A stretch of 64,000 bases of DNA. Origin: a virus. Each line of letters opens with the position of its first letter. Position 1 is the first letter of the stretch. The notes beneath the pieces are model-generated. The model saw nothing but the letters and a program-made list of their open reading frames with translations. It searched no databases and had not been told where the DNA came from. The DNA lies in IMG/VR virus record IMGVR_UViG_3300037322_000275, positions 1 to 64,000 of that record; one strand, 5' to 3'. This document shows, one piece after another, positions 43,967-55,073 of the stretch. A program made the position numbers and the translations under genes.

Positions 43967-44653
43967 TTACCAGATAATTTCTCTAATACCGTCAGATCTT
44001 AATATACTGTTTACTTGATTAAAAATATTGTTTGTATTACAAAGTTCTTTTTCAGTATTTTCAAAAACATAGTGTTTCTTATTGTCAATGTACTTTTTAA
44101 AATGTTCATTACCTTGTTCTAAAAACAAAAATACAATGTTTTCTTTTTCTTCATTAATTGTGTATATAAACTGTCTTACAAAGTTTTTCCAATATTCAGA
44201 ATGATCTTCACCAAATTTCCATGTTAAAGAAGTATTTAGCATTAGAACACCTTGGTTAGCCCACCATTTCATAGTATTGTCAAATTCCTGTGTGTCTTCA
44301 TAAACTGTATCATTTACACAATTTATGATTTTTTTGTTTATGTCAGGAATTATTTGATTTAAATGTACATCAGAAACACCATAAGCTAAACCGTTTGTTA
44401 AATATGTAGGTCTTAAACCAAAACATACAACTTTTAGTTTATCAAAAGGAGTTTTTCTAAAACAATTAAACAACTCTTCTTTCTTTGGATACACATTAAC
44501 ATGATTTTTGTAATATTCATCTATAAAGACAGCAAGATTATTCATATAAGAAGTACAAAGAAGATTTTTAGACAACGGTTTTGCCCAATCTTTCAGCAGT
44601 ACACTGTAATTTGATTTAAATACAGAAGTTTCTAATTTGTGTTCTATTTCCAT
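43967..44653 (-). CDS. Uracil-DNA glycosylase-fold protein with degenerate active site
   Basis: 228 residues. The fold signature is clear: KVVCFGLRPTY (74-84) aligns to the E. coli Ung GQDPYH loop, NGLAYGV to GLAFSV, and WANQGVLMLNTSLT to WARQGVLLLNTVLT (substrate Asn N140 kept). However, the catalytic Asp is replaced by R81, and the HPSPLS loop with its catalytic His is missing, replaced by ENTEKELC. UDG genes are common in crAss-like phages. This one is probably inactive as a glycosylase and may instead bind DNA or a partner protein. It ends just before the RusA promoter. Confidence 0.75.
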   Translation of the reverse strand: MEIEHKLETSVFKSNYSVLLKDWAKPLSKNLLCTSYMNNLAVFIDEYYKNHVNVYPKKEELFNCFRKTPFDKLKVVCFGLRPTYLTNGLAYGVSDVHLNQIIPDINKKIINCVNDTVYEDTQEFDNTMKWWANQGVLMLNTSLTWKFGEDHSEYWKNFVRQFIYTINEEKENIVFLFLEQGNEHFKKYIDNKKHYVFENTEKELCNTNNIFNQVNSILRSDGIREIIW

Positions 44654-44661
44654 AATTAATA

Positions 44662-46500
44662 TTAAATTGTTTCAGAGTCTAAAGCTAGTGGAGAATCAAC
44701 AAAAAGTGATGCTGCTTGATCTGAAAAACCCATAGAAACTAAAGAAGTTTTTCTGGATTTTTGAGATTTCGCACTACTTTGTATGTAGGACGTGAACTCA
44801 TCACTTTCTAATGGTTCATTAGTATTTAAAGATTGTTTAGGATCATAAATACCTGTAAAAAAGTTATTATCTTTTTTACGAACTTCTGTAGGTGTTTCAT
44901 ATCCTGTAGATTTTTCATAATTTAAACCTATAAATCCAATATAATCAGAACCCTTTGAAGAAATATAATTTGAATAATCTGTTTTAGAATAAAAATCTTT
45001 AGAGTCTTTCCAATTAATAAGTCCTCCATTTTTTATTTTTGATTCATCACCAAGGACAAGTCCATGTTTGTTTTGTGATTCTGTGGAAATTCTTCTGTTC
45101 TGCAAGTATTTAAAAAGTGATTTTCTTAAATAACTTTTTGCAATACCATTAGACAAAGAAATATCTATAATTGAAAATATACCTTTTCTTCCGTCAAAAA
45201 AGTTTTTATCTTCTAAAATCTGATTTTGATATTTTTTTACAAAATTAACTAGAATAGAATTTAACAAAATAAAACTTATAATTTTGTCTATATCATATGT
45301 TGGTGTATGAATTCTAAATTCAATTGTTGTTTTGTTTCCAAAAATTAAAGGAATCAAGTTGTGTATGTGATATCTTGTATGCACATTCCATTTTTGAGAA
45401 CCTTGTGGATCTCTTGGATGAACAGATACATTATCTAAGTTACAACCTACCTCATTAAAACTTTGACCTTCTGACAAATATTGATATAAAACATTAAAGT
45501 TTTGATCAATGTTTGTTGGCGTAATTTGAGTATCTAATTTAGAAACTAAAGAATACGCAGGATAAGGTGCAGAATAGTTCTTGTTTTTTAAACCAAAGTT
45601 ATACTTTTTGTAGATTGGAAAATAAGAAAACATTTCATCTTGTATTTCACAAGTAAACTTAAAAAATGCAAGAATAAATTCCTTTGTTCTTGGTATGTTT
45701 CCTAAATGTAAATGTAAGGAACAAGTGTCATCAAATGTTGTTTTTTCATTTAAGATTTCTAATTGGTCAACAACTGTTTGAAGACCTTTTTCACCTCTTA
45801 ATGGAATTGTAACATATTCAATACCTGAAATAGAACCATCTCTTAAGGGAATTAGTCCTACTCTATCTGTAATTCTTTTAGGTATAAATCCTTTAACTGT
45901 CTCAAATTCTAAACCAAAACTTAAATCTTCTAAAACATTTCCATATTTTTTGATATCTTCTGAAATAACACCATCATACAAGTTGTTATAAATCTCTGAA
46001 TAATGAGAAATAAGACCCTTTGAGTCATAAGGTAAACTTGTCTTATATTCAGATCTTGGTGTTGAAATTCTTCCAAATTCTCTTGCTTGTAATCTAGAAA
46101 TGTGGTAGAAGTTACCATCTGCAAGTCTTTCTCTATAGAAATTATTGTTTTTTAAGGAATCCGCATCAAACAGTAATTTTTGTTCTCCGTTTTCTAACGT
46201 TATCACAGATAGTGTTTCTTCTTGTTTAAAGTAACCTTCAACTAAAGAACCGTCTTCATTCACACAAACAATACCTTTTGTTAAGTGAGGTGTTAAAACG
46301 TCGTAACTGTTGATTGTAAAGTTATAGACAATAGAATCAACACCTAAAATTCGATACTTGTTTTTTACTAAATAACAATCTCCTGAATTTTCAATTAATG
46401 GGTCTCCTACTTTGTAGTAGTTTCCATTAATAAGTCTACAGTCTTGTGCTAATTCAGTATTTCCTAGAGGTGTAATCACTCTCTTTTGTTTATCTTTCAT
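44662..46500 (-). CDS. Amidoligase-family (glutamine-synthetase-fold COOH-NH2 ligase) protein
   Basis: 612 residues from ATG 46500, which is 20 bases after the upstream stop; the ATG at 46578 lies inside the upstream gene and its product would begin with an odd aromatic stretch. The amidoligase core appears as FGLEFET (195-201), RDGSISGIEYV (~220-230), SLHLHLG (261-267) and TIEFRIHTPTYD (~392-403), the E-x-E, DGS, HxHxG and EFR motifs of the family. The N-terminal ~190 residues and Ser-rich C-terminal ~100 are extra. Members join a carboxylate to an amine using ATP. Adjacent genes encode a glutamine amidotransferase and another amidoligase type, so it probably belongs to a multi-enzyme pathway of unknown product. 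Confidence 0.8.
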   Translation of the reverse strand: MKDKQKRVITPLGNTELAQDCRLINGNYYKVGDPLIENSGDCYLVKNKYRILGVDSIVYNFTINSYDVLTPHLTKGIVCVNEDGSLVEGYFKQEETLSVITLENGEQKLLFDADSLKNNNFYRERLADGNFYHISRLQAREFGRISTPRSEYKTSLPYDSKGLISHYSEIYNNLYDGVISEDIKKYGNVLEDLSFGLEFETVKGFIPKRITDRVGLIPLRDGSISGIEYVTIPLRGEKGLQTVVDQLEILNEKTTFDDTCSLHLHLGNIPRTKEFILAFFKFTCEIQDEMFSYFPIYKKYNFGLKNKNYSAPYPAYSLVSKLDTQITPTNIDQNFNVLYQYLSEGQSFNEVGCNLDNVSVHPRDPQGSQKWNVHTRYHIHNLIPLIFGNKTTIEFRIHTPTYDIDKIISFILLNSILVNFVKKYQNQILEDKNFFDGRKGIFSIIDISLSNGIAKSYLRKSLFKYLQNRRISTESQNKHGLVLGDESKIKNGGLINWKDSKDFYSKTDYSNYISSKGSDYIGFIGLNYEKSTGYETPTEVRKKDNNFFTGIYDPKQSLNTNEPLESDEFTSYIQSSAKSQKSRKTSLVSMGFSDQAASLFVDSPLALDSETI

Positions 46501-46520
46501 ACTTTTTAGTAAGTTTTTTA

Positions 46521-48551
46521 TTATTTTAATATAAGTGACGAAATACAATCTACAATTTGTTCTAGTATAACTATACATTCTTGTGCTTTTTCGTTTTCTC
46601 GGTAATCTTGTAAAGACTTCTTTAAATCTATTATTTCTTGAATAGGCTCTGTTAGAGATTCTCCAATTAATTCCAGTATAAAGTCATCCGTTTCTTTATT
46701 ATTGTTAATCTCAGTACTTCCTGAGTCATGTAAACTTTTTAGGAAAGCTTCATCGTTTTGAGCAAGAACTTCTTTCTTTTCTATTTCATTTTCTTTAACA
46801 GTAATTGTTTCTTCAATTGTCAAAATGTTATTTATTGCTTTTTTTATTATAGGATTTTCTTTAGCAAAACTAATTGGAAGTTGAATCACACTTGCTTCTT
46901 TCTTTATAAAAGGAAATTTAACATCTTCTCTGATTACAATTTTGGTAAGTATACCTTTTTCAATAGAATATATTTTTTCACCACCTAAATAACAAACACC
47001 ACCATTTAATGTGTTTGCAGGTTCACCATTAAACAAGATTTTAGATTCTGCACTTGTCTTGTCATTACCTTTGGTAATGTTAATAACAGGATGTTTTGAA
47101 ACATAAGAAAGTTCTCTAAAACTTAAATACTCACCAGCTTTTAAAATTGCTTTTTTGTGATGCATTACAGAATAATCAATTGCAGATTTCATCATAACAC
47201 CTTCAACAAAATAAAAATATGCAGGATTCTTAGATCCATTTTTGTAAGGAATAAAGTCTGTACTTTCTGTTTTTACAGCATTAAATGAGTTTTTTTCTGC
47301 ATTAAAGAATAAACCTTTGTACCATTCAATTTCTTTATCTGCATTAGATATTGTTTGAGAAATGTGTTTAAAACCAAAGTTTTTAATGTAAGTGTAAATT
47401 CCATTTATACTGTGTCCATTTGAATAGTATCTAAATTTATTAAAGTAAATACGTGAACCATAATCTGAAGTATCTTTTATTGTTTTTTCGTTGTGAATAT
47501 TCAAGTCATTTTCAGATCTTAAAGAAGGAAAGTTTTGAACGTATTCGTTTCTTTTGTTTGCTCTAGCATTGTTGTAATTAACAGAATCATTGTAACCATC
47601 GTTATCATAAAATCTTTCATCACAATGACTGAAGTTTTGATTTAAATTTGTAGGTGCCTTATAATTAGCATACGTTTGATTTTGTGTTATTTTTTCTCTA
47701 CTAATTTTCCAAGTCTGTGCTTCTTTAAAATTACCATCAGTAACACAATAAACAACATTGTTTTCAATCTGAAATGAATTTTTATCATCAGCACCAATTG
47801 CTTGTAAACTATCTAAAAGTGAAGAAACAAACATGTTGTTTTTAGACTTTAAATAAACACACAAAGGTCTTTCTAGCTCTACTTTAGAATGCATGTAATC
47901 GTATTCCTTTGAAGCACCTGAAAATAAGTAAATTTTATTAGGTGCTGCAGTATAAGACCACACTAATGCTGCAGTTCCAACGTAGTCACTTAACACTCTA
48001 AAGTTTTGTTCTTTGTAAAGAATTTCAAGTAATACTTCACTATCTATTTTATCTCTTGTACTAACAGGAGTGCTGTAGTTGTCTATTTCCTTTAACTCTA
48101 TATTATACTTTTCAGCAAGTTCTTTATGATTCTTTAAAGTTCCATTATGTACACCTACAAATGCATATCCTCTATTGTGTTCCAGTTCACCAAAACCAAA
48201 GGGATGTGCATTATTTAAAGATATCGCATGTCCTGCACTTGCTTGTCTTGTATGACCTATAATGGTTGGAAAGTGTTTAGGTTTTAAATTTCTGTTTTTT
48301 ATAAAATCTGTATAAAGTTTATCTTGGTTTACACCATGATGTATTTCACCATCAAAAGTCACACCACATGAATTTTTACCTCGTTCTACATTATATATTC
48401 CTAGAATATTGAATTCAGAAGTAGATATTGAACTTGGCAATTTTGTTGCTTGTGCAAAAATTCCACAGTTTAACGTTAAATGTCTTGTTTTTGAAAACAA
48501 GTTTATCAAGATTTGTAAGAATGCAAATATTATTATTCCAAGTATTATCAT
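46521..48551 (-). CDS. Class II glutamine amidotransferase with hydrophobic N-terminal extension
   Basis: 676 residues. The Ntn-hydrolase domain (~29-260) has CGIF (C29), RGKNSCG, GHTRQASAG (99-107) and VHNGTLKNH (134-142), followed by an IDSE segment, as in GATase II enzymes such as PurF and GlmS that release ammonia from glutamine. The nucleophile must become N-terminal, yet 28 residues precede it, including a hydrophobic stretch LGIIIFAFLQILINLF. Either a propeptide is removed or the protein is membrane-anchored. The C-terminal ~400 residues are not recognised. It lies directly upstream (in transcription) of the amidoligase and is probably its ammonia source. Confidence 0.82.
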   Translation of the reverse strand: MIILGIIIFAFLQILINLFSKTRHLTLNCGIFAQATKLPSSISTSEFNILGIYNVERGKNSCGVTFDGEIHHGVNQDKLYTDFIKNRNLKPKHFPTIIGHTRQASAGHAISLNNAHPFGFGELEHNRGYAFVGVHNGTLKNHKELAEKYNIELKEIDNYSTPVSTRDKIDSEVLLEILYKEQNFRVLSDYVGTAALVWSYTAAPNKIYLFSGASKEYDYMHSKVELERPLCVYLKSKNNMFVSSLLDSLQAIGADDKNSFQIENNVVYCVTDGNFKEAQTWKISREKITQNQTYANYKAPTNLNQNFSHCDERFYDNDGYNDSVNYNNARANKRNEYVQNFPSLRSENDLNIHNEKTIKDTSDYGSRIYFNKFRYYSNGHSINGIYTYIKNFGFKHISQTISNADKEIEWYKGLFFNAEKNSFNAVKTESTDFIPYKNGSKNPAYFYFVEGVMMKSAIDYSVMHHKKAILKAGEYLSFRELSYVSKHPVINITKGNDKTSAESKILFNGEPANTLNGGVCYLGGEKIYSIEKGILTKIVIREDVKFPFIKKEASVIQLPISFAKENPIIKKAINNILTIEETITVKENEIEKKEVLAQNDEAFLKSLHDSGSTEINNNKETDDFILELIGESLTEPIQEIIDLKKSLQDYRENEKAQECIVILEQIVDCISSLILK

Positions 48552-48573
48552 TGTTTTTTATTTTTATTTATTT

Positions 48574-49374
48574 TTATACTAATTCTGCAACTTTTGAAAG
48601 AGAAATTAAACTCAATAATTTAGTAGCTAACTCTCTATTGTTTGTGTTAATAGCTTCTACAATTTGATCTGCATACTGACTAGCAATATCTTTTACTTTA
48701 CCTGAATTAACTAATTCAATAGCTTCTAACGTAGAGTAATAAGCCCACGTAAGTAATTCATCATTTACAATCCAGAAGTTACTTAAAACACGGTATTCAA
48801 CACCAAAGTTTGTAAATCTAAAACAACCTGCTTTACCATACATTTCTTTTCTTCTGACATCACTATCTAAAAGAACAGATTGTAAACCTAAAACAATATC
48901 CATTGCTTTAATAAGTTCTTCTTGAACTTCCTCTGTAGGATCATCCCAACCTATTGCAATATGTCCACCTGCACTTCTTAAATTTAAAGAAGCATCTCCT
49001 GCGGGATTAACACTGTATGACCAAACATCAAAGTCAGGCTCACAACCAATTGCTTTTGCTTGATCTGAATCAAGTTGTTTGTCAGAAAGTATTGCAGATG
49101 CTGAAAAGTTTAGTTTACAGCCAATACCTGTAACAAATACATCTAAATAATCTTTTACAAAATTATGTTCTTTAATCCATTGTTGTAGACTATTACAAGG
49201 TGGAATATTATATTCTATTAAAACATTGTCTTCCTGTACTGCATGACCGAGATTTGTAATTTTACGAGGTTTATATTTTGTACCACCAATCAATCCTACA
49301 GAAGAGATAATTTCTCCATCTTTTTCTAAAAACATTTCTGGATCAGAACCTAAAGTTATATTTTTTATTTTCAT
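48574..49374 (-). CDS. COOH-NH2 ligase type 2 (phage amidoligase, phiEco32-type)
   Basis: 266 residues. The family's conserved blocks all occur in order: GSDPEMFL (9-16), GLIGGTKYKP, AVQEDNVLIEYNIPP (45-59), IGCEPDFDVW (109-118), RSAGGHIAIGW (133-143) and GVEYRVLSNFW (191-201). These are glutamine-synthetase-fold ligases predicted to form amide bonds, found in phages such as phiEco32 and relatives. The HxHxG histidine pair appears as HIAIG, so one metal-ligand His may be replaced by Ala. The gene sits in the middle of the amide-bond island. Confidence 0.88.
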   Translation of the reverse strand: MKIKNITLGSDPEMFLEKDGEIISSVGLIGGTKYKPRKITNLGHAVQEDNVLIEYNIPPCNSLQQWIKEHNFVKDYLDVFVTGIGCKLNFSASAILSDKQLDSDQAKAIGCEPDFDVWSYSVNPAGDASLNLRSAGGHIAIGWDDPTEEVQEELIKAMDIVLGLQSVLLDSDVRRKEMYGKAGCFRFTNFGVEYRVLSNFWIVNDELLTWAYYSTLEAIELVNSGKVKDIASQYADQIVEAINTNNRELATKLLSLISLSKVAELV

Positions 49375-49381
49375 TTTTGAG

Positions 49382-50239
49382 TTACTTTTTATTAATTAAA
49401 TATTCTTTTACTAAAGATAAACACATATCTTTTGTTTTTTGAGGACAGTTAGGATATTCAGGGTGACCTTGAATACATAATGCTTTTGTATTAGGATAAT
49501 ATACAATTTCACATTCTAAAAAATCTGCAGATCTCTTTATTTCTTCATCATTTCCATTTAGATATGTTGAACTGTTAAAATACTTAGAATGAGCAATAAT
49601 TTTGTAGTTTAATTGTGACATTTCAAAGGGAAACATCATTTGATGATGTGTTGAAGTTATTTCATAACTCTTTCCTTTTTGGTCTTCTATTTCATGGTTT
49701 CTACCGTGACCTGTAACGTGTTGGATCAACTTACCACCAGAATAAACTGTTAAAAATTGAGAACCTCTACATATTCCTAGTTTTGGTACGTTATAGTAAT
49801 TATTCAATATTGATTCTTCAAGATTATCTCTTGTTTTGTTACAACTTGTATATTTACCTTTATTTTCACCATAAATTTCAGTAGAAACATCTTCACCACC
49901 TGTAAACAAAACTAAATCTACTTTTTCTGAATTTATCTCACCATGTTTTAGAACTGTAATGTCAAAACATTCAGACAACCATTTTATTTCTTCTTCTGCA
50001 GAATTGTTGTTTGCAACTAAAATGTTTAAAGCTATCTTTTTTTTATCTACAGGATTTTCATGTTCTTCATCAAAACCGTTTTCCACAATATATTGTGCTT
50101 TTTCTTTATGCCCAATACCAGGAATTTTTTCATAATCTTGTGCAGAAATACTATGATTAATGTAATTTGCAATTTGTTCTTTATCGTTTTGAAATGCTTC
50201 CTTTATAGAGCAAAGAAACATTTTTAAATTATCTTCCAT
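49382..50239 (-). CDS. Class I glutamine amidotransferase / PuuD-like gamma-glutamyl hydrolase (copy A)
   Basis: 285 residues. The catalytic Cys is in LGICRGSQ (C157), and the His-Glu pair is in QGHPEYPN (H259, E261). FTGGEDVS and STHHQMMF are typical of the gamma-glutamyl-GABA hydrolase (PuuD/peptidase C26) branch. The first ~68 residues form an extra helical N-terminal domain (KIPGIGHKEKAQYIVENG). The enzyme would hydrolyse a gamma-glutamyl amide or supply ammonia. Its neighbour downstream is the COOH-NH2 ligase. Confidence 0.82.
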   Translation of the reverse strand: MEDNLKMFLCSIKEAFQNDKEQIANYINHSISAQDYEKIPGIGHKEKAQYIVENGFDEEHENPVDKKKIALNILVANNNSAEEEIKWLSECFDITVLKHGEINSEKVDLVLFTGGEDVSTEIYGENKGKYTSCNKTRDNLEESILNNYYNVPKLGICRGSQFLTVYSGGKLIQHVTGHGRNHEIEDQKGKSYEITSTHHQMMFPFEMSQLNYKIIAHSKYFNSSTYLNGNDEEIKRSADFLECEIVYYPNTKALCIQGHPEYPNCPQKTKDMCLSLVKEYLINKK

Positions 50240-50240
50240 T

Positions 50241-50603
50241 TTATCTTTTATTTTTTATTATACACATTACTCTTTTACTTCTGTTTGTACTTATATATGC
50301 TTGTTTCAACAAAAAATCATTCTTATCAAAACAGTTTTCAATAGTTTCCAGATATTTTTGACAAAATTCAATTACAAAATTTCTGTTTTTACCAATAACT
50401 TTAGTTATTTCTCTAAATTGTTCAAGTATTTTTTCTCTGTCTTCTAAACTAAACAAAGTTTCAATTCTACCTATTGTACAGTGTTGACAGTTGTAAAAAG
50501 GAGATTCACTAACTAACAAAGCACCATATTTATTTGAGTTCCATGTTCTTGGAAAGGTAGCATTTATTAAAATAAAGTCTTCTTGTTTAATAACATTATC
50601 CAT
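50241..50603 (-). CDS. Hypothetical protein inside the amidoligase island
   Basis: 120 residues, not recognised. It contains a CQHC pair (YNCQHCTIGRIETLF), a helical mid-section (EDREKILEQFREITKVIG) and a basic C-terminus. The cysteine pair could bind zinc, but only two residues are seen. It overlaps the ATP-grasp gene by 8 bases and is 1 base from copy A of the class I GATase, so it is probably part of the same pathway. Confidence 0.45.
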   Translation of the reverse strand: MDNVIKQEDFILINATFPRTWNSNKYGALLVSESPFYNCQHCTIGRIETLFSLEDREKILEQFREITKVIGKNRNFVIEFCQKYLETIENCFDKNDFLLKQAYISTNRSKRVMCIIKNKR

Positions 50604-51444
50604 TTATTTTACGTTTAATAATTTTAGGAATTTCTTCAATATATTTTTTAGCACATACAGACAATTCTCCACTACCATTATCCATAGATGAAGCACTATT
50701 ACATTCTAGTAATATAAAATCTTGATATTCTCTTTTATCACCATTTTTATCTATAGGTGATTGAACTTTTACATCAAAAGAAAGTAAATCAGCACCTATT
50801 GCTACTAAGGCATTTACACAATTTGCAACAATATCATCCCAACTATTTGGTTTGTAAAATTCAACAGAATCTTCTAAAAACCACACACAAATATCATCGT
50901 GTCTTCTCCACTTTTGGTCTTCAGGTACATCTTTTTTTAATGCTTTTCTACAAGTGTAAAAACAACCATCTTCTGTGATGTGTAATCTGAATTCGTGACC
51001 ATAGTTAAAAAACTTTTCAAAGATGTAATTATTTACATTTTTACCAGTTTTCCACTGTTGAAATTCTTCTATAGATTTAATTAATGTGTTACCTCTACCT
51101 TTAGAACCAAAGTGAGATTTTGCAACAATTGGAAATTCTGGAAGATTGTTTTCTTCAGCTGTTAAGTCACTTCCAGAAAGCCACATTGCTGTCTTAATAC
51201 CTGCTTCTGTAAACTTCTTTTTCATCAGTAATTTAGAAGCTGAATTCTTAATTGATTCAACCGTGTTAATTTCTACACGGTTACCTCCATTTGCTATTGT
51301 GTCTCCACATTCTGTTGACGAGCCAAGTCTTATTACAGAACGAACTGAAGACAATTCAATATTTTTTGATTTCAATCTAAGACAATCGTGTGAAGGATGT
51401 CTTGACAAGACTAATGGTCTAAATAAAGTGAGTTTCTTTTTCAA
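50596..51444 (-). CDS. ATP-grasp carboxylate-amine ligase (RimK-like)
   Basis: 282 residues. The ATP-grasp elements are EFPIVAKSHFGSKGRGN (K109 and the Gly-rich loop 113-118), the IFEKFFNYGHEFRLHI strand (141-156), DVKV (D224) and the Mg-binding ILLECNSASSM (E247, N249). The N-terminal segment (VLSRHPSHDCLRLKS) is typical of phage members of these amidoligase clusters. It would ligate a carboxylate, activated as acyl-phosphate, to an amine, for example a gamma-glutamyl or isopeptide bond. Neighbours on both sides are GATase I-like hydrolases and a hypothetical protein. Confidence 0.85.
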   Translation of the reverse strand: MKKKLTLFRPLVLSRHPSHDCLRLKSKNIELSSVRSVIRLGSSTECGDTIANGGNRVEINTVESIKNSASKLLMKKKFTEAGIKTAMWLSGSDLTAEENNLPEFPIVAKSHFGSKGRGNTLIKSIEEFQQWKTGKNVNNYIFEKFFNYGHEFRLHITEDGCFYTCRKALKKDVPEDQKWRRHDDICVWFLEDSVEFYKPNSWDDIVANCVNALVAIGADLLSFDVKVQSPIDKNGDKREYQDFILLECNSASSMDNGSGELSVCAKKYIEEIPKIIKRKING

Positions 51445-51445
51445 T

Positions 51446-52135
51446 TTAGTTGTTTTTTAAAGTTAAAAGATAGTGGATACAGGTTACTGAAAATTTGTCA
51501 TAAATTTCCTCAACGTGCCACTGTGTTGTGATTGCAGGGTAATTTGGTAAATAGGATAAAGCTTCAATTTCTTGAGTATATTCTTTTACTTTAACATCTT
51601 TTGGTGCATAATAACCAAGTACAACAGCATTTTCAGGAACTGAAGCAACTGTTTGATGGTGAATACTGTTTACACTAAAAGTTTGATTTGATAATTCAGG
51701 TATTTCAAACACATTGTTTGTGCAATGTATTTTGTGAACAAGATCTTTCCTAGAAGAAGTATTTTGTTCGTGATGCATATCTTGTTTTATTTTAGCACCA
51801 AAATATACAGCTAATGATTGATGACCTCGACAAGTTCCCCAAATTGGGGTTCTTTGTGCAATGTACTTTGGTAAAAGAACTTGATCAAATCTTTCTCTGT
51901 ACATACATGGTGCACCAGTACTAAAGTTAATGTCTTCACCTGGTTCCAAGTATCTCCACGGTGCAACATCTGGACCACCTGGCAATACCAACAAATCTAA
52001 ATCTCTGACTTCTTTATCAAATGGAGTTATCAATATAACTTCACCAAAGTAACTAAAGAAATTTACATAAGGTAATGTAATTCCAAAACTATTTCCACCT
52101 GTTAATACGTGTCCTACGATTCCTATTTTTTTCAT
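51446..52135 (-). CDS. Class I glutamine amidotransferase / PuuD-like hydrolase (copy B)
   Basis: 229 residues. The nucleophile is in WGTCRGHQ (C102), the catalytic His and Glu in TTQWHVEE (H207, E209), and LPGGPDVAPW and SIHHQTVA are PuuD/peptidase C26-like. It lacks the N-terminal domain of copy A at 49382. Full triads in both copies suggest two distinct gamma-glutamyl substrates. It ends one base before the ATP-grasp start. Confidence 0.83.
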   Translation of the reverse strand: MKKIGIVGHVLTGGNSFGITLPYVNFFSYFGEVILITPFDKEVRDLDLLVLPGGPDVAPWRYLEPGEDINFSTGAPCMYRERFDQVLLPKYIAQRTPIWGTCRGHQSLAVYFGAKIKQDMHHEQNTSSRKDLVHKIHCTNNVFEIPELSNQTFSVNSIHHQTVASVPENAVVLGYYAPKDVKVKEYTQEIEALSYLPNYPAITTQWHVEEIYDKFSVTCIHYLLTLKNN

Positions 52136-52151
52136 CTTTTTTGTATTTTTA

Positions 52152-52322
52152 TTATTTTTTATTTATAATTTTATCTTGCTCTGTTAAAGAAATACCACTA
52201 AGTTTATTAGACAGTAACCCACACGTTACACACCAAGTTACACCAAATTCATTATCTCTTAATTTGTGTTTACCTTTATCACATTGAGATCTTCGTAACC
52301 AGTATATTTCTCTTGTTAGCAT
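52152..52322 (-). CDS. Small zinc-ribbon-like protein (56 aa)
   Basis: ATG at 52322, TAA at 52154-52152. The product has the cysteine/histidine spacing C-x4-H (QCDKGKH) and C-x2-C (WCVTCG) separated by ~11 residues, a plausible zinc ribbon, in a 250-base gap otherwise without a gene. Codon use matches neighbours. Function unknown; presence of a metal-binding arrangement makes a spurious frame unlikely. Confidence 0.6.
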   Translation of the reverse strand: MLTREIYWLRRSQCDKGKHKLRDNEFGVTWCVTCGLLSNKLSGISLTEQDKIINKK

Positions 52323-52384
52323 ATTTTTATTATTTTTAATTGTATTGTACAGCTTTACCTTATTTCTGTAGAATGTTGTCTTTA

Positions 52385-52873
52385 TTAGTCAAATAAAGTA
52401 CATTTTTTATTTTCCCACCAGAACAACAACATTCCTTCGTTTTTTTTGTTAAATTTTTCTACGTAATACTCAGGAGTAAATATGGCATCATCTTGAACGT
52501 ATAAAGAAGCAAATGTAAAGTTTGTAACACTAAAATCTACAAGAGTATCGTATAACGTCTTAAAATTTCTGCCTCTAAGTACACCACTATCAATAAAAAT
52601 GTAATGTGTATCTTTTTGTAAATCAAAGACAAAATCTTTACAATAACTTGGATATTCTTTTTCAAAAGGAGTATTGGGAAAGGGTATATCAAAATTAATC
52701 ATTGTTAAAGGATTATCAAAATATGCATGAATTACTTGTTGCGAAATAATAGACGAATAATCTGGACTACAATTTACAACTATTGTATTTCTAGTTACTA
52801 TAGGTTTTAGCCACTCTATTAATTCTTTAATATCTCTTTTTTCTTTTTTTTGATTTATTTTAAAGTATTTCAT
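52385..52873 (-). CDS. Phosphoribosyltransferase-like protein
   Basis: 162 residues. Residues 92-104, IFIDSGVLRGRNF, resemble the PRPP-binding loop of type I phosphoribosyltransferases (hydrophobic strand, D, then a Gly/Thr-rich loop), and the section FASLYVQDDAIFTPEYYVE ending LFWWE resembles the C-terminal substrate segment of (hypo)xanthine-type enzymes. The loop is divergent: the usual DD-x-x-T-G is IDSGVLRG. It could be a degenerate PRTase with another role. It lies between the GGCT and zinc-ribbon genes. Confidence 0.45.
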   Translation of the reverse strand: MKYFKINQKKEKRDIKELIEWLKPIVTRNTIVVNCSPDYSSIISQQVIHAYFDNPLTMINFDIPFPNTPFEKEYPSYCKDFVFDLQKDTHYIFIDSGVLRGRNFKTLYDTLVDFSVTNFTFASLYVQDDAIFTPEYYVEKFNKKNEGMLLFWWENKKCTLFD

Positions 52874-52885
52874 AGTTTTAGTTAT

Positions 52886-53290
52886 TTAATTATTACTAAG
52901 ACTTCGGTATCGTGTTTTCAAATCTCTAAATTCTTTCCAATCTCCAGATTCTACTAATTGAGACGCGGGTATTTCATCTACATATACATAAGTAGATGCT
53001 TCACCATAAGGTGTGTTAATTTTAATTTTGTCATAAAATGTGGCAGGTCTATCTTGAGAATAACCTTCTAGACCATCTATTCGTGAAGCTTCTAAAGCAT
53101 CTACTTCATAGACTTCCATAACTACAGGTGTTGTACCTTCCTGTTTTAATCCTGGATAGCCTCCTAAAGAATATAAGGAATACTCAGGTTCTGTTGTGAA
53201 GGTTCCTAAGAATTTAGCATGTGTTAAATAATGATCATTTCCCATGTCTTTTCTAAGTGAGCCATAAACACTAACTAATCTTTTTGTCAT
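52886..53290 (-). CDS. Gamma-glutamylcyclotransferase-like (AIG2/GGCT) protein
   Basis: 134 residues. The GGCT hallmark VYGSLRKDMGN (8-18), the small hydrophobic-turn segment SLGGYPGL and the DGLEGY motif with catalytic Glu E75 are all present. GGCT enzymes release 5-oxoproline from gamma-glutamyl amines. Together with two PuuD-like hydrolases this implies turnover of gamma-glutamyl bonds made by the ligases of the island. It starts 11 bases after the paralogous gene ends. Confidence 0.83.
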   Translation of the reverse strand: MTKRLVSVYGSLRKDMGNDHYLTHAKFLGTFTTEPEYSLYSLGGYPGLKQEGTTPVVMEVYEVDALEASRIDGLEGYSQDRPATFYDKIKINTPYGEASTYVYVDEIPASQLVESGDWKEFRDLKTRYRSLSNN

Positions 53291-53301
53291 TTTTTTTATA
53301 T

Positions 53302-53904
53302 TTAAGTTGTTATATTCTTTTTTGAAAGTATATCTGTGTAATGTTCACCAAGAGTTGTTTTTTTTTCAGTAATTGTCTGTAAAAAATCAACCCAATCGCC
53401 ATCTCTAACTAAAACGTCAGACTTAGTAATTGTACCTTCCCAAAAATAAATAAAAATTTCACCAAAAGGTGATCCTACACAGTGTCTTGTAAAGTAGTTG
53501 GTTTCAGGAAATATGTTACCTTCATCAAATCCATTAAATAAATCTAAAGTTTCTAGAACACTTTGTGTAACTGAAAATACTTCAACTAAAATAGAATGAT
53601 CACCTTTAACTAAAGCTGAAATCATATCTATATCAATTTTATACAACGAATATTCAGGTTCTGTGTAATAAGAACCTACAAAAAGAGTATCCATTCCTTT
53701 TCTTGAAATGTCTCGGTGTTCAACAGTTGATTTTCTATAGTCACCATAGAAACCTACTAAAAATCTTTTTTCCATGTTATTATTTGTTGGTTGTTTTAAT
53801 TGTCTTTTTTCTTCTCTTTTTTTAAGTCTATTTTGTGTTTTGGCTTTCGCCATTTCACTGTACTTTTCTTTGTTTTTAGTTTTTGCTCTTTTACTTCTTC
53901 CCAT
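53302..53904 (-). CDS. Divergent GGCT-like protein with basic N-terminal extension and altered active site
   Basis: 200 residues from ATG 53904, one base after the primase stop; ATG at 53961 would overlap the primase gene. Residues 1-43 are strongly basic (KRAKTKNKEKYSE, LKKREEKRQLKQ). The rest is GGCT-like: FYGDYRK (52-58) replaces YGSLR, and the usual LDxLEG reads LDLFNGF with N124 where the catalytic Glu should be. So catalysis by the standard mechanism is unlikely. Another start at ATG 53775 would remove the basic part. It is a paralogue of the next gene; a regulatory or binding role is possible. Confidence 0.65.
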   Translation of the reverse strand: MGRSKRAKTKNKEKYSEMAKAKTQNRLKKREEKRQLKQPTNNNMEKRFLVGFYGDYRKSTVEHRDISRKGMDTLFVGSYYTEPEYSLYKIDIDMISALVKGDHSILVEVFSVTQSVLETLDLFNGFDEGNIFPETNYFTRHCVGSPFGEIFIYFWEGTITKSDVLVRDGDWVDFLQTITEKKTTLGEHYTDILSKKNITT

Positions 53905-53905
53905 T

Positions 53906-54940
53906 TTAAAAAGGTAATAATGTTTCGTATAATAATATTTGTTTTGCTGCATCTTTACCAAAGTTTTTTACTAGATCTGAAGGATCTTTTGACTGATATG
54001 TTGTTGGAATAAAACAATCAACAAGTCCAAAATCTTTAGAAATTTTATCTGCAAACTTTCTTCCCCAGTTAATTTCGGCATCAAAATCATTGTCATATAG
54101 TAATGAAATATCTTTAAAACGATCTTTCAACTGATCAAAAACATGTCTTTTTGGTAAAATGTTTTCACATTGTAATGCTACAGAAGGTAATCCTAATAAA
54201 CTATCGATAACCATAACATCTTTTAATGACTTAGTAATTACTAAATCTGCTCCTTGTTGTGGAAGTTGTTCCCAACCTTGCCATACAGAACTGTCATGAT
54301 TAGTTATCCATTTAAATTTTTCATTAAAAGGTTGATATATTTTGTATGTTTCAACTTTGTCTTTAATTTCTATAAAAACGTAGGCATGCTTATCTGCAAG
54401 ATATGGTGTGTCATTTATAAAAAAGTAATCTATTGCTTCTACTCTATATTTTTCAAGAGTTTTTTTACTTATTTCAAAACTTTCCCAAAATAAAACATCA
54501 TGTACTTGCCACTTGCGATTTCTTTTTTGAATCTTGTAACTTACTGACTTTGCAATTAAATCTGTTCTATTTAGTTTAGAAAAATTGTTGTTTAAAAGTT
54601 TTGTTTTTTCCATTTTTTTTAGAACAAAAAATTCTTCTAACTCAAAATCTACACCAATTTTACTCAATGCTTCCCAATAAGTTAAACTGAATTTCATTTG
54701 TACAAACTTTACAAAGTCTCCACCACCTAATTTAAAGTCGTTAAAACACACTTCATTTCCTTCTCCAATAAAGAAACCAAAAGAAGGAGTTCCTTCATTT
54801 CTAAAAGGAGAAATATTTGGTTTACCACCAATACTAATATCAAAATCAACATATTTTCTGTATATATCAATATCTTGATAATGTTGTAATATTCCTTTTT
54901 TGGAAATCATTTCCTTTTCTACATTTAAATCTATTTTCAT
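53906..54940 (-). CDS. dnaG: DnaG-type DNA primase
   Basis: 344 residues. The N-terminal SPFRNEGTPSF (44-54) is the DnaG zinc-binding-domain turn without its cysteines; TKSLKD (236-241) and LYDNDFDAE (281-289) are the TOPRIM acidic motifs, with KDPSDLVKNFG near the end as in phage primases. The usual TOPRIM Glu is replaced by the K/S pair, which is common in phage TOPRIM primases. It makes RNA primers for the DnaB helicase/PolB replisome. A tRNA-like gene lies 41 bases upstream. Confidence 0.85.
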   Translation of the reverse strand: MKIDLNVEKEMISKKGILQHYQDIDIYRKYVDFDISIGGKPNISPFRNEGTPSFGFFIGEGNEVCFNDFKLGGGDFVKFVQMKFSLTYWEALSKIGVDFELEEFFVLKKMEKTKLLNNNFSKLNRTDLIAKSVSYKIQKRNRKWQVHDVLFWESFEISKKTLEKYRVEAIDYFFINDTPYLADKHAYVFIEIKDKVETYKIYQPFNEKFKWITNHDSSVWQGWEQLPQQGADLVITKSLKDVMVIDSLLGLPSVALQCENILPKRHVFDQLKDRFKDISLLYDNDFDAEINWGRKFADKISKDFGLVDCFIPTTYQSKDPSDLVKNFGKDAAKQILLYETLLPF

Positions 54941-54981
54941 ATTAAACTTTTCATAATTTATTTAACTTTAGTTAATATTGA

Positions 54982-55073
54982 TGTCGAGACAGGATTCGAA
55001 CCTGTACGAGAATAAACCATTCCTTTTATTTCTCTATCTGTTAATTAGCGTCTACCAATTCCGCCACTCGACA
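54982..55073 (-). tRNA. tRNA-Leu-like gene (class II, long variable arm; anticodon uncertain)
   Basis: 92 bases on the minus strand. TGTCGAG pairs with CTCGACA as a perfect 7-bp acceptor stem, the T arm is ACAGG-TTCGAAT-CCTGT, the D arm (GCG...CGC with GGAATTGGTAGA) is canonical, and AATAAA-AGGAATGG-TTTATT makes a long variable arm, as in tRNA-Leu. CCA is not encoded. The segment for the anticodon arm (TAATTAACAGATAGAGA) does not form a good 5-bp stem with a normal 7-base loop, so no anticodon can be assigned with confidence. It may be a decaying or atypical tRNA. Confidence 0.6.

Follow-up and report, generated by a model that had tools for sequence, protein, structure and literature searches.

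A primase-adjacent slot in crAss-like phages is occupied by an amidoligase cassette or by one of three unrelated modules

The window analysed here is a stretch of 64,000 nucleotides from a virus record of 93,081 bases (IMG/VR IMGVR_UViG_3300037322_000275). Between positions 44,662 and 53,904 it carries an amidoligase cassette (AMID), a run of ten genes lying between those for a DNA primase and a protein resembling uracil-DNA glycosylase (UDG). In crAss-like phages this slot between primase and UDG was found to hold one of four unrelated modules: the AMID cassette, a ThiF(E1)/JAB ubiquitin-like cassette (UB), the RIIA/RIIB pair or a MoxR/DUF2201 pair. The four-way exclusive slot appears to be new, having no description in the literature that we searched (most subscription journals lay outside the search). 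From this context we tentatively favour a counter-defence or host-takeover role for AMID over cell-wall modification, with a probability of roughly 0.4.

By its protein sequences the source phage is crAss-like and close to Cellulophaga phage phi14:2. Its major head protein shares 61.5% identity with the phi14:2 protein and is also related to the head proteins of crAss-like phages from Bacteroides, whilst TerL and the portal protein are of crAss type, matching the phage families in the same scan. This agrees with a first-pass annotation of the window, made from the letters alone, as does the layout of the run: all ten open reading frames lie head-to-tail on the minus strand as described (Table 1).

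Four alternative occupants of the slot

Resampling of the loci by primase, instead of by ligase, revealed two occupants beyond the AMID and UB cassettes, namely RIIA with RIIB (phrog_612 and phrog_609) and a DUF2201 metallopeptidase/VWA protein with a MoxR-like ATPase. Both pairs were seen at the primase-adjacent slot in loci L158, L145, L177, L171 and their relatives, with RIIAB in some loci placed after UDG and not directly after primase. The UB cassette runs in the order primase, putative ubiquitin-like protein (UBL), putative E2, JAB, ThiF, a further protein and UDG in cr111_1, cr85_1, crAss001 and many Bacteroides phages; in the Flavobacterium Fpv phages its genes sit just after UDG. The ThiF protein matched PF00899 above the cut-off (2.1e-16) and the best match of JAB was to Prok-JAB, with a score under the Pfam cut-off. 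The putative UBL has an invariant SG after its first domain and the putative E2 an invariant Cys and a conserved His; neither had a family match, nor a PDB match by sequence. In crAss001-type phages (L098:11905-12567 and homologues) the SG directly follows the N-terminal domain of the putative UBL, and is a possible point of cleavage by JAB.

Amongst 144 classifiable primase loci, 69 held AMID, 53 UB, 11 MoxR/DUF2201 and 10 RIIA; a single locus was empty and none was double. Doubles were still absent from these loci when any module gene was counted irrespective of distance. Removal of near-identical primases left 101 loci (46 AMID, 44 ThiF/JAB, 4 MoxR/DUF2201, 6 RIIA and 1 with none), and the tree of these distinct primases requires 11 module changes, including at least four gains or losses of AMID that are forced by well-supported branches. 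Fisher's test of AMID against ThiF gave 1.4e-18, a value that is illustrative only, as relatedness is left out of account and module genes served to collect many of the loci.

Exclusion extended to whole records. ThiF was found in 31 of 31 ThiF-type records, in none of 28 AMID-type records and nowhere in the genome of the window phage; RIIA in 5 of 5 RII-type records and 0 of 66 others; and DUF2201_N in 3 of 3 MoxR/DUF2201-type records and 0 of 68 others. The profile PF14395 proved insensitive, recovering 19 of 29 known carriers of the phiEco32-type COOH-NH2 ligase (COOH), and the search for this enzyme was therefore repeated with a profile of our own, which detected it in all 10 AMID controls and in none of 42 other records. 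In 59 mostly long records the rest of the genome yielded no second module. Additionally, AMID phages outside the crAss-like group carried neither RIIA (0/32) nor ThiF (0/32), many of these contigs being fragments.

The amidoligase cassette and its relatives

Searches with Pfam, NCBIfam and PHROG profiles placed eight of the ten proteins in the families named by the first-pass annotation. The two amidoligases do belong to distinct families. Amidoligase_2 (ALIG, at 44662) scored barely above the PF12224 cut-off (23 bits) and matched phrog_2443 at 1.9e-30; its start is likely an inner ATG (MKDKQ..). The top PDB match of its AlphaFold model was gamma-glutamylcysteine synthetase (1va6, E 4.9e-4), followed by YbdK and glutamine synthetases, and residues E198, E200, D221, E228, H263, H265, E394 and R396 are invariant in the family. 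The COOH ligase at 48574 has conserved D11, E13, E54, H138, R186, E193 and R195. The predicted ATP-grasp ligase at 50596 was supported by its PHROG match, its Pfam score lying below the cut-off, and the class II glutamine amidotransferase (GAT2) at 46521 by a match to GATase_6 (9.6e-9). The two proteins put down as class I amidotransferases (49382 and 51446) were confirmed as Peptidase_C26 (C26) members; the best NCBIfam match of both is gamma-glutamyl-CDP-amidate hydrolase, far under its cut-off.

Table 1. Genes of the amidoligase cassette, the GAT2 leader and the bordering genes in the window.
Feature	Position	Strand	Evidence and remarks
UDG-like gene	43967..44653	-	phrog_12143 2.5e-27; UDG annotation in relatives; downstream border of slot
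Amidoligase_2 (ALIG)	44662..46500	-	PF12224 and phrog_2443; beta-rich N-terminal domain, glutamine synthetase (GS)-fold ligase domain, disordered C-terminal tail
Class II glutamine amidotransferase (GAT2)	46521..48551	-	leader; N-terminal nucleophile (NTN) domain 29-282; second domain 350-540; coiled coil 567-676
GAT2 leader, hydrophobic, 28 residues (MIILGIIIFAFLQILINLFSKTRHLTLN)	48468..48551	-	ends directly before catalytic Cys29
phiEco32-type COOH-NH2 ligase (COOH)	48574..49374	-	PF14395 1.7e-7; phrog_3815 1.9e-75, full length
Peptidase_C26 / class I GAT-like hydrolase a	49382..50239	-	Peptidase_C26 1.2e-15; Cys (GICRGSQ) and His/Glu (GHPE) present
Accessory phage protein	50241..50603	-	family with invariant NCQ..Y.S.N.S
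ATP-grasp ligase (RimK/S6-glutaminyl-transferase-like)	50596..51444	-	phrog_2599 'S6 glutaminyl transferase' 1.6e-17; weak PF02222
Peptidase_C26 / class I GAT-like hydrolase b	51446..52135	-	Peptidase_C26 1.3e-22; Cys (GTCRGHQ) and His/Glu (WHVEE) present
Orphan protein	52385..52873	-	phrog_29004 (unknown function), sole profile match
GGACT/GGCT-like cyclotransferase	52886..53290	-	PF06094 3.5e-18; YtfP 1xhs 7e-20; YGSL and catalytic Glu intact
GGCT paralogue	53302..53904	-	GGACT 1.8e-6; YGDY for YGSL, N at Glu column
DNA primase	53906..54940	-	phrog_12622 5.3e-59; upstream border of slot

The catalytic residues are invariant across the ALIG, COOH and GAT2 families. Since each family in the cassette counts enzymes that attach or take off gamma-glutamyl groups among its relatives, the inferred chemistry is one of ligating and trimming. 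Both GGCT-like proteins match GGACT as annotated, but only in the sense of family membership for 53302: the catalytic residue of GGCT enzymes is a Glu, which this protein lacks. As the nine members of its clade have all lost YGSL and the catalytic Glu, with Y, H or N at the Glu column, 53302 is a probable pseudoenzyme whose role is probably in binding or regulation.

Two labels were withdrawn. The protein at 50241 had been called a zinc-ribbon protein, for which two conserved Cys pairs are required; it has no Pfam match or other profile support, and in ten homologues a single Cys of CxxC is kept, inside an invariant N-C-Q and accompanied by Y..S..N..S. The supposed phosphoribosyltransferase (PRTase)-like protein at 52385 matched no PRTase profile, nor any in Pfam or NCBIfam, and none of the 91 related loci collected first contained a homologue.

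The COOH ligase is present in 312 phage records, and the recorded hosts of carriers are Gram-negative bacteria, one cyanobacterium and one planctomycete. The same set of genes occurs in Pseudomonas phages PaP3 and tf, Escherichia phage ECBP2, Cellulophaga phage phi14:2, the uncultured cr108_1 and Leptolyngbya phage Lbo-JY46 (hidden Markov model assignment). In the 48 loci with at least 7.5 kb either side of the COOH ligase, GAT2 was found in 48, ALIG and ATP-grasp in 47 each, C26 in 44 and GGCT in 34, always on the same strand, and 47 of the 48 hold ATP-grasp, COOH, ALIG and GAT2 together. The genes thus lie together in relatives and are not scattered, and the core genes co-occur far above chance. 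Gene order is constant inside the crAss-like group and shuffled in other phage groups, which indicates that the cassette acts as a functional unit.

By family content the cassette is a crAss-like member of the already known phiEco32-type amidoligase cassette, as the first-pass annotation had suggested, with COOH, PF12224, ATP-grasp and class II amidotransferase genes in one run alongside the gamma-glutamyl-type hydrolases. With the versions in Kuravirus, LUZ24/PaP3-like phages, phi14:2 and cr108_1 it shares the ligase, amidotransferase and GGCT families, their single strand and the adjoining replication genes. It differs in its two C26 proteins, two GGCTs (one predicted to be inactive), amidotransferase membrane leader and two accessory genes, and in occupying a slot that three other kinds of module can also fill. 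Its completeness, thought unusual by the same annotation, is not so: near relatives show the same order and all the main families, including two GGCTs and two C26 proteins. We found no reported function or product for the phiEco32/LUZ24-type cassette, and bacterial-genome context, which yielded six hits only, on phage-like contigs, gave no function.

Several observations concern relatives of the cassette. Two metagenomic contigs (L088:5174-8880 and L089:983-4568) carry a smaller set of COOH, C26, a possible CCA-type nucleotidyltransferase and GGCT, with no ALIG or GAT2 nearby. In LUZ24-like and Kuravirus-type phages a protein of about 200 residues (phrog_4877) is encoded between COOH and ALIG (PaP3 orf47, L014:6279-6857; ECBP2_0084, L095:14817-15443), and might be the counterpart of the N-terminal domain of crAss-like ALIG. 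Mass spectrometry of a phage SU10 preparation detected ATP-grasp, amidotransferase and GGCT proteins, but these came with other early non-virion proteins, and we do not count the detection as evidence for a place in the virion (PMC4281155).

At the borders of the slot, the UDG-like protein has GLRPTY in place of the GQDPYH of active family-1 UDGs and seems to have lost the catalytic Asp; GQDPYH is kept in the UDG of related loci such as L145. A lone tRNA-Leu (CAG) gene (54980-55073) lies just upstream of the primase gene. A GroEL-type chaperonin (phrog_5725, 8.2e-114) is encoded just outside the window, upstream of the terminase gene (L093:13484-14989).

A hydrophobic leader on the class II amidotransferase

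Class II amidotransferases require a nucleophilic Cys at the N-terminus, once the Met has been removed. In GAT2 the corresponding Cys29 is invariant, together with R102, H135-N-G137 and D170, yet it is preceded by a leader of 28 residues: MIILGIIIFAFLQILINLFSKTRHLTLN, in which a short basic linker follows a stretch of strong hydrophobicity, leads directly into CGIF. Mean hydropathy is 2.7 across 19 residues, and residues 2 to 19 form a helix in the model. Foldseek matched the modelled NTN glutaminase domain to GlmS, PurF and the gamma-glutamyl hydrolase EgtC; the second domain, although confidently modelled, had no PDB match among the matches listed. No membrane segments of note were found in the other proteins of the cassette.

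The leader is present in 25 of the 80 GAT2 sequences in the tree, those of the window phage and 24 relatives. Where examined, it stops exactly at the Cys, and proteins without a leader begin M-C-G. On the catalytic-domain tree 16 changes of leader state are required, at least nine of them forced by well-supported branches, and loci L070 and L071 differ in leader state with nearly identical catalytic domains. Such appearance and disappearance of the leader likewise seems new with respect to the literature searched. A lipoprotein signal was considered and rejected: the Cys is separated from the hydrophobic stretch by basic residues, and positions -3 to -1 do not form a lipobox. The simplest reading is that GAT2 is a membrane-inserted pro-enzyme that would be cut before the Cys.

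Candidate roles of the cassette

RIIA and RIIB of several phages counter the RexAB abortive system and are dispensable in its absence (PMC11879866; also PMC8594841). Because the AMID cassette interchanges in the slot with this experimentally shown counter-defence pair, a counter-defence or host-takeover role is suggested; if the occupants are equivalent in function, AMID would be a module of that kind. The likeness to RIIA/RIIB (T4 rII) is one of position in other crAss-like phages, as the pair comprises a GHKL ATPase and a partner without amide chemistry. With the ThiF/JAB cassette (crAss001, cr85_1, cr111_1, DAC15 and Flavobacterium Fpv phages) AMID shares the slot and ATP-dependent activation of carboxyl groups, which the former combines with a predicted isopeptide hydrolase; the former employs an E1-like adenylating enzyme and a putative UBL in place of ATP-grasp and GS-fold ligases. 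No homologous protein, and hence no candidate for a shared target, was found in common between these two cassettes.

We propose that AMID would build gamma-glutamyl or peptide amides on a target, either a protein or a small molecule on which a defence system relies, and that C26 and GGCT would trim gamma-glutamyl groups or recycle them, a logic that would parallel the building and trimming of isopeptides by E1/E2/JAB. In the window phage and its 24 relatives, removal of the predicted membrane-spanning leader at the bond preceding the catalytic Cys would free GAT2, and part of the work would probably take place at the inner membrane. A bolder version is doubtful: here AMID would be a protein-tagging system equivalent to E1/E2/JAB, either of these, RIIAB or MoxR/DUF2201 would disable the same class of host defence, and GAT2 would be a membrane-activated pro-enzyme.

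A number of points weigh against the counter-defence proposal. It draws on genomic context, and the removal of the leader is itself a prediction. The UBL and E2 labels were assigned solely by context and motifs, alongside a JAB match of sub-threshold score. The Gordonclarkvirinae are carriers of the cassette described as remarkably resistant to restriction, with detectable sensitivity to just one of the defence systems tested (PMC11990801); this is in keeping with the proposal but is a correlation. Furthermore, the loci were partly chosen by cassette genes, so that the shares of the modules cannot be read as frequencies in the population. The chief doubt is that exclusion could arise, without any shared function, through the swapping of alleles between conserved flanks. 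The slot would then be a mere cargo hot spot, with recombination between the conserved primase and UDG/exonuclease genes exchanging modules, and the conserved flanks, the modular occupants and the displaced position of RIIAB in some loci all suit such an account. Freely exchanged cargo would be expected to be missing, or to occur twice, in many loci, however, and just one of the 144 loci was empty and none double. This near-full occupancy, together with the lack of a second module elsewhere in the 59 records, argues against free cargo and falls short of proving equivalence; we regard the hot spot as possible but somewhat doubtful.

Modification of the cell envelope, by ligases that attach amino acids or peptides to a precursor of peptidoglycan or to another lipid-linked molecule and so block superinfection, is in our estimation unlikely. 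A cell-wall role was proposed for the phiEco32 cassette, according to PMC10580990, which credits it to Iyer et al. 2009, and the range of carrier hosts is in keeping with it. The first-pass annotation had similarly suggested that the cassette might build a peptide-like modification on host peptidoglycan, lipid-linked peptides or a virion protein, whereas the interchange of modules at the slot points towards counter-defence or host takeover. The hydrophobic leader of GAT2 in the clade of the window phage suits lipid-linked substrates, and on its account a membrane-bound substrate is conceivable; yet 55 of the 80 relatives do without the leader. The cassette contains no cell-wall enzyme, adjoins primase in the replication module and not the lysis genes, and an envelope role leaves its interchange with RIIAB and MoxR unexplained.

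The gamma-glutamyl theme also invites comparison with the butirosin (BtrJ/BtrG), ergothioneine (EgtA/EgtC) and Puu polyamine (PuuA/PuuD) routes, in which gamma-glutamylation by a ligase is paired with a GGCT, EgtC-like or C26-type removal enzyme. On this model the phage would make a gamma-glutamylated amine or a modified amino acid, from which GGCT, C26 and the EgtC-like GAT2 would remove gamma-glutamyl groups. The pairing is supported by fold matches and by the gamma-glutamyl ligase or hydrolase relatives of each family, and the GGCT of phage tf is annotated as BtrG-like. The window cassette lacks the tailoring enzymes and carrier proteins found in those pathways, however; it has no conserved association with a carrier protein, decarboxylase, oxidase or transporter, and interchange with ubiquitin-like and RIIAB modules hints at no metabolite. 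A small-molecule pathway is accordingly rated as quite unlikely. Hypermodification of DNA or nucleotides to shield the phage genome would fit the position of the cassette among replication genes in all groups, and the resistance of Gordonclarkvirinae to restriction-modification without a known modification (PMC11990801). Bulk DNA hypermodification is nonetheless very improbable, because virion DNA of phage tf, which carries COOH, ALIG, GAT2, ATP-grasp and GGCT, is cut by RsaI, HpaI, EcoRV, SmaI and HaeIII (PMC3517423), and the cassette includes no DNA-modifying transferase.

The amidoligase cassette is found in hundreds of sequenced phages, and its interchange with RIIAB and with a ubiquitin-like cassette makes a puzzle of annotation directly testable. 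If the counter-defence or host-takeover proposal is true, two chemically unrelated tagging systems would be joined to one viral task.

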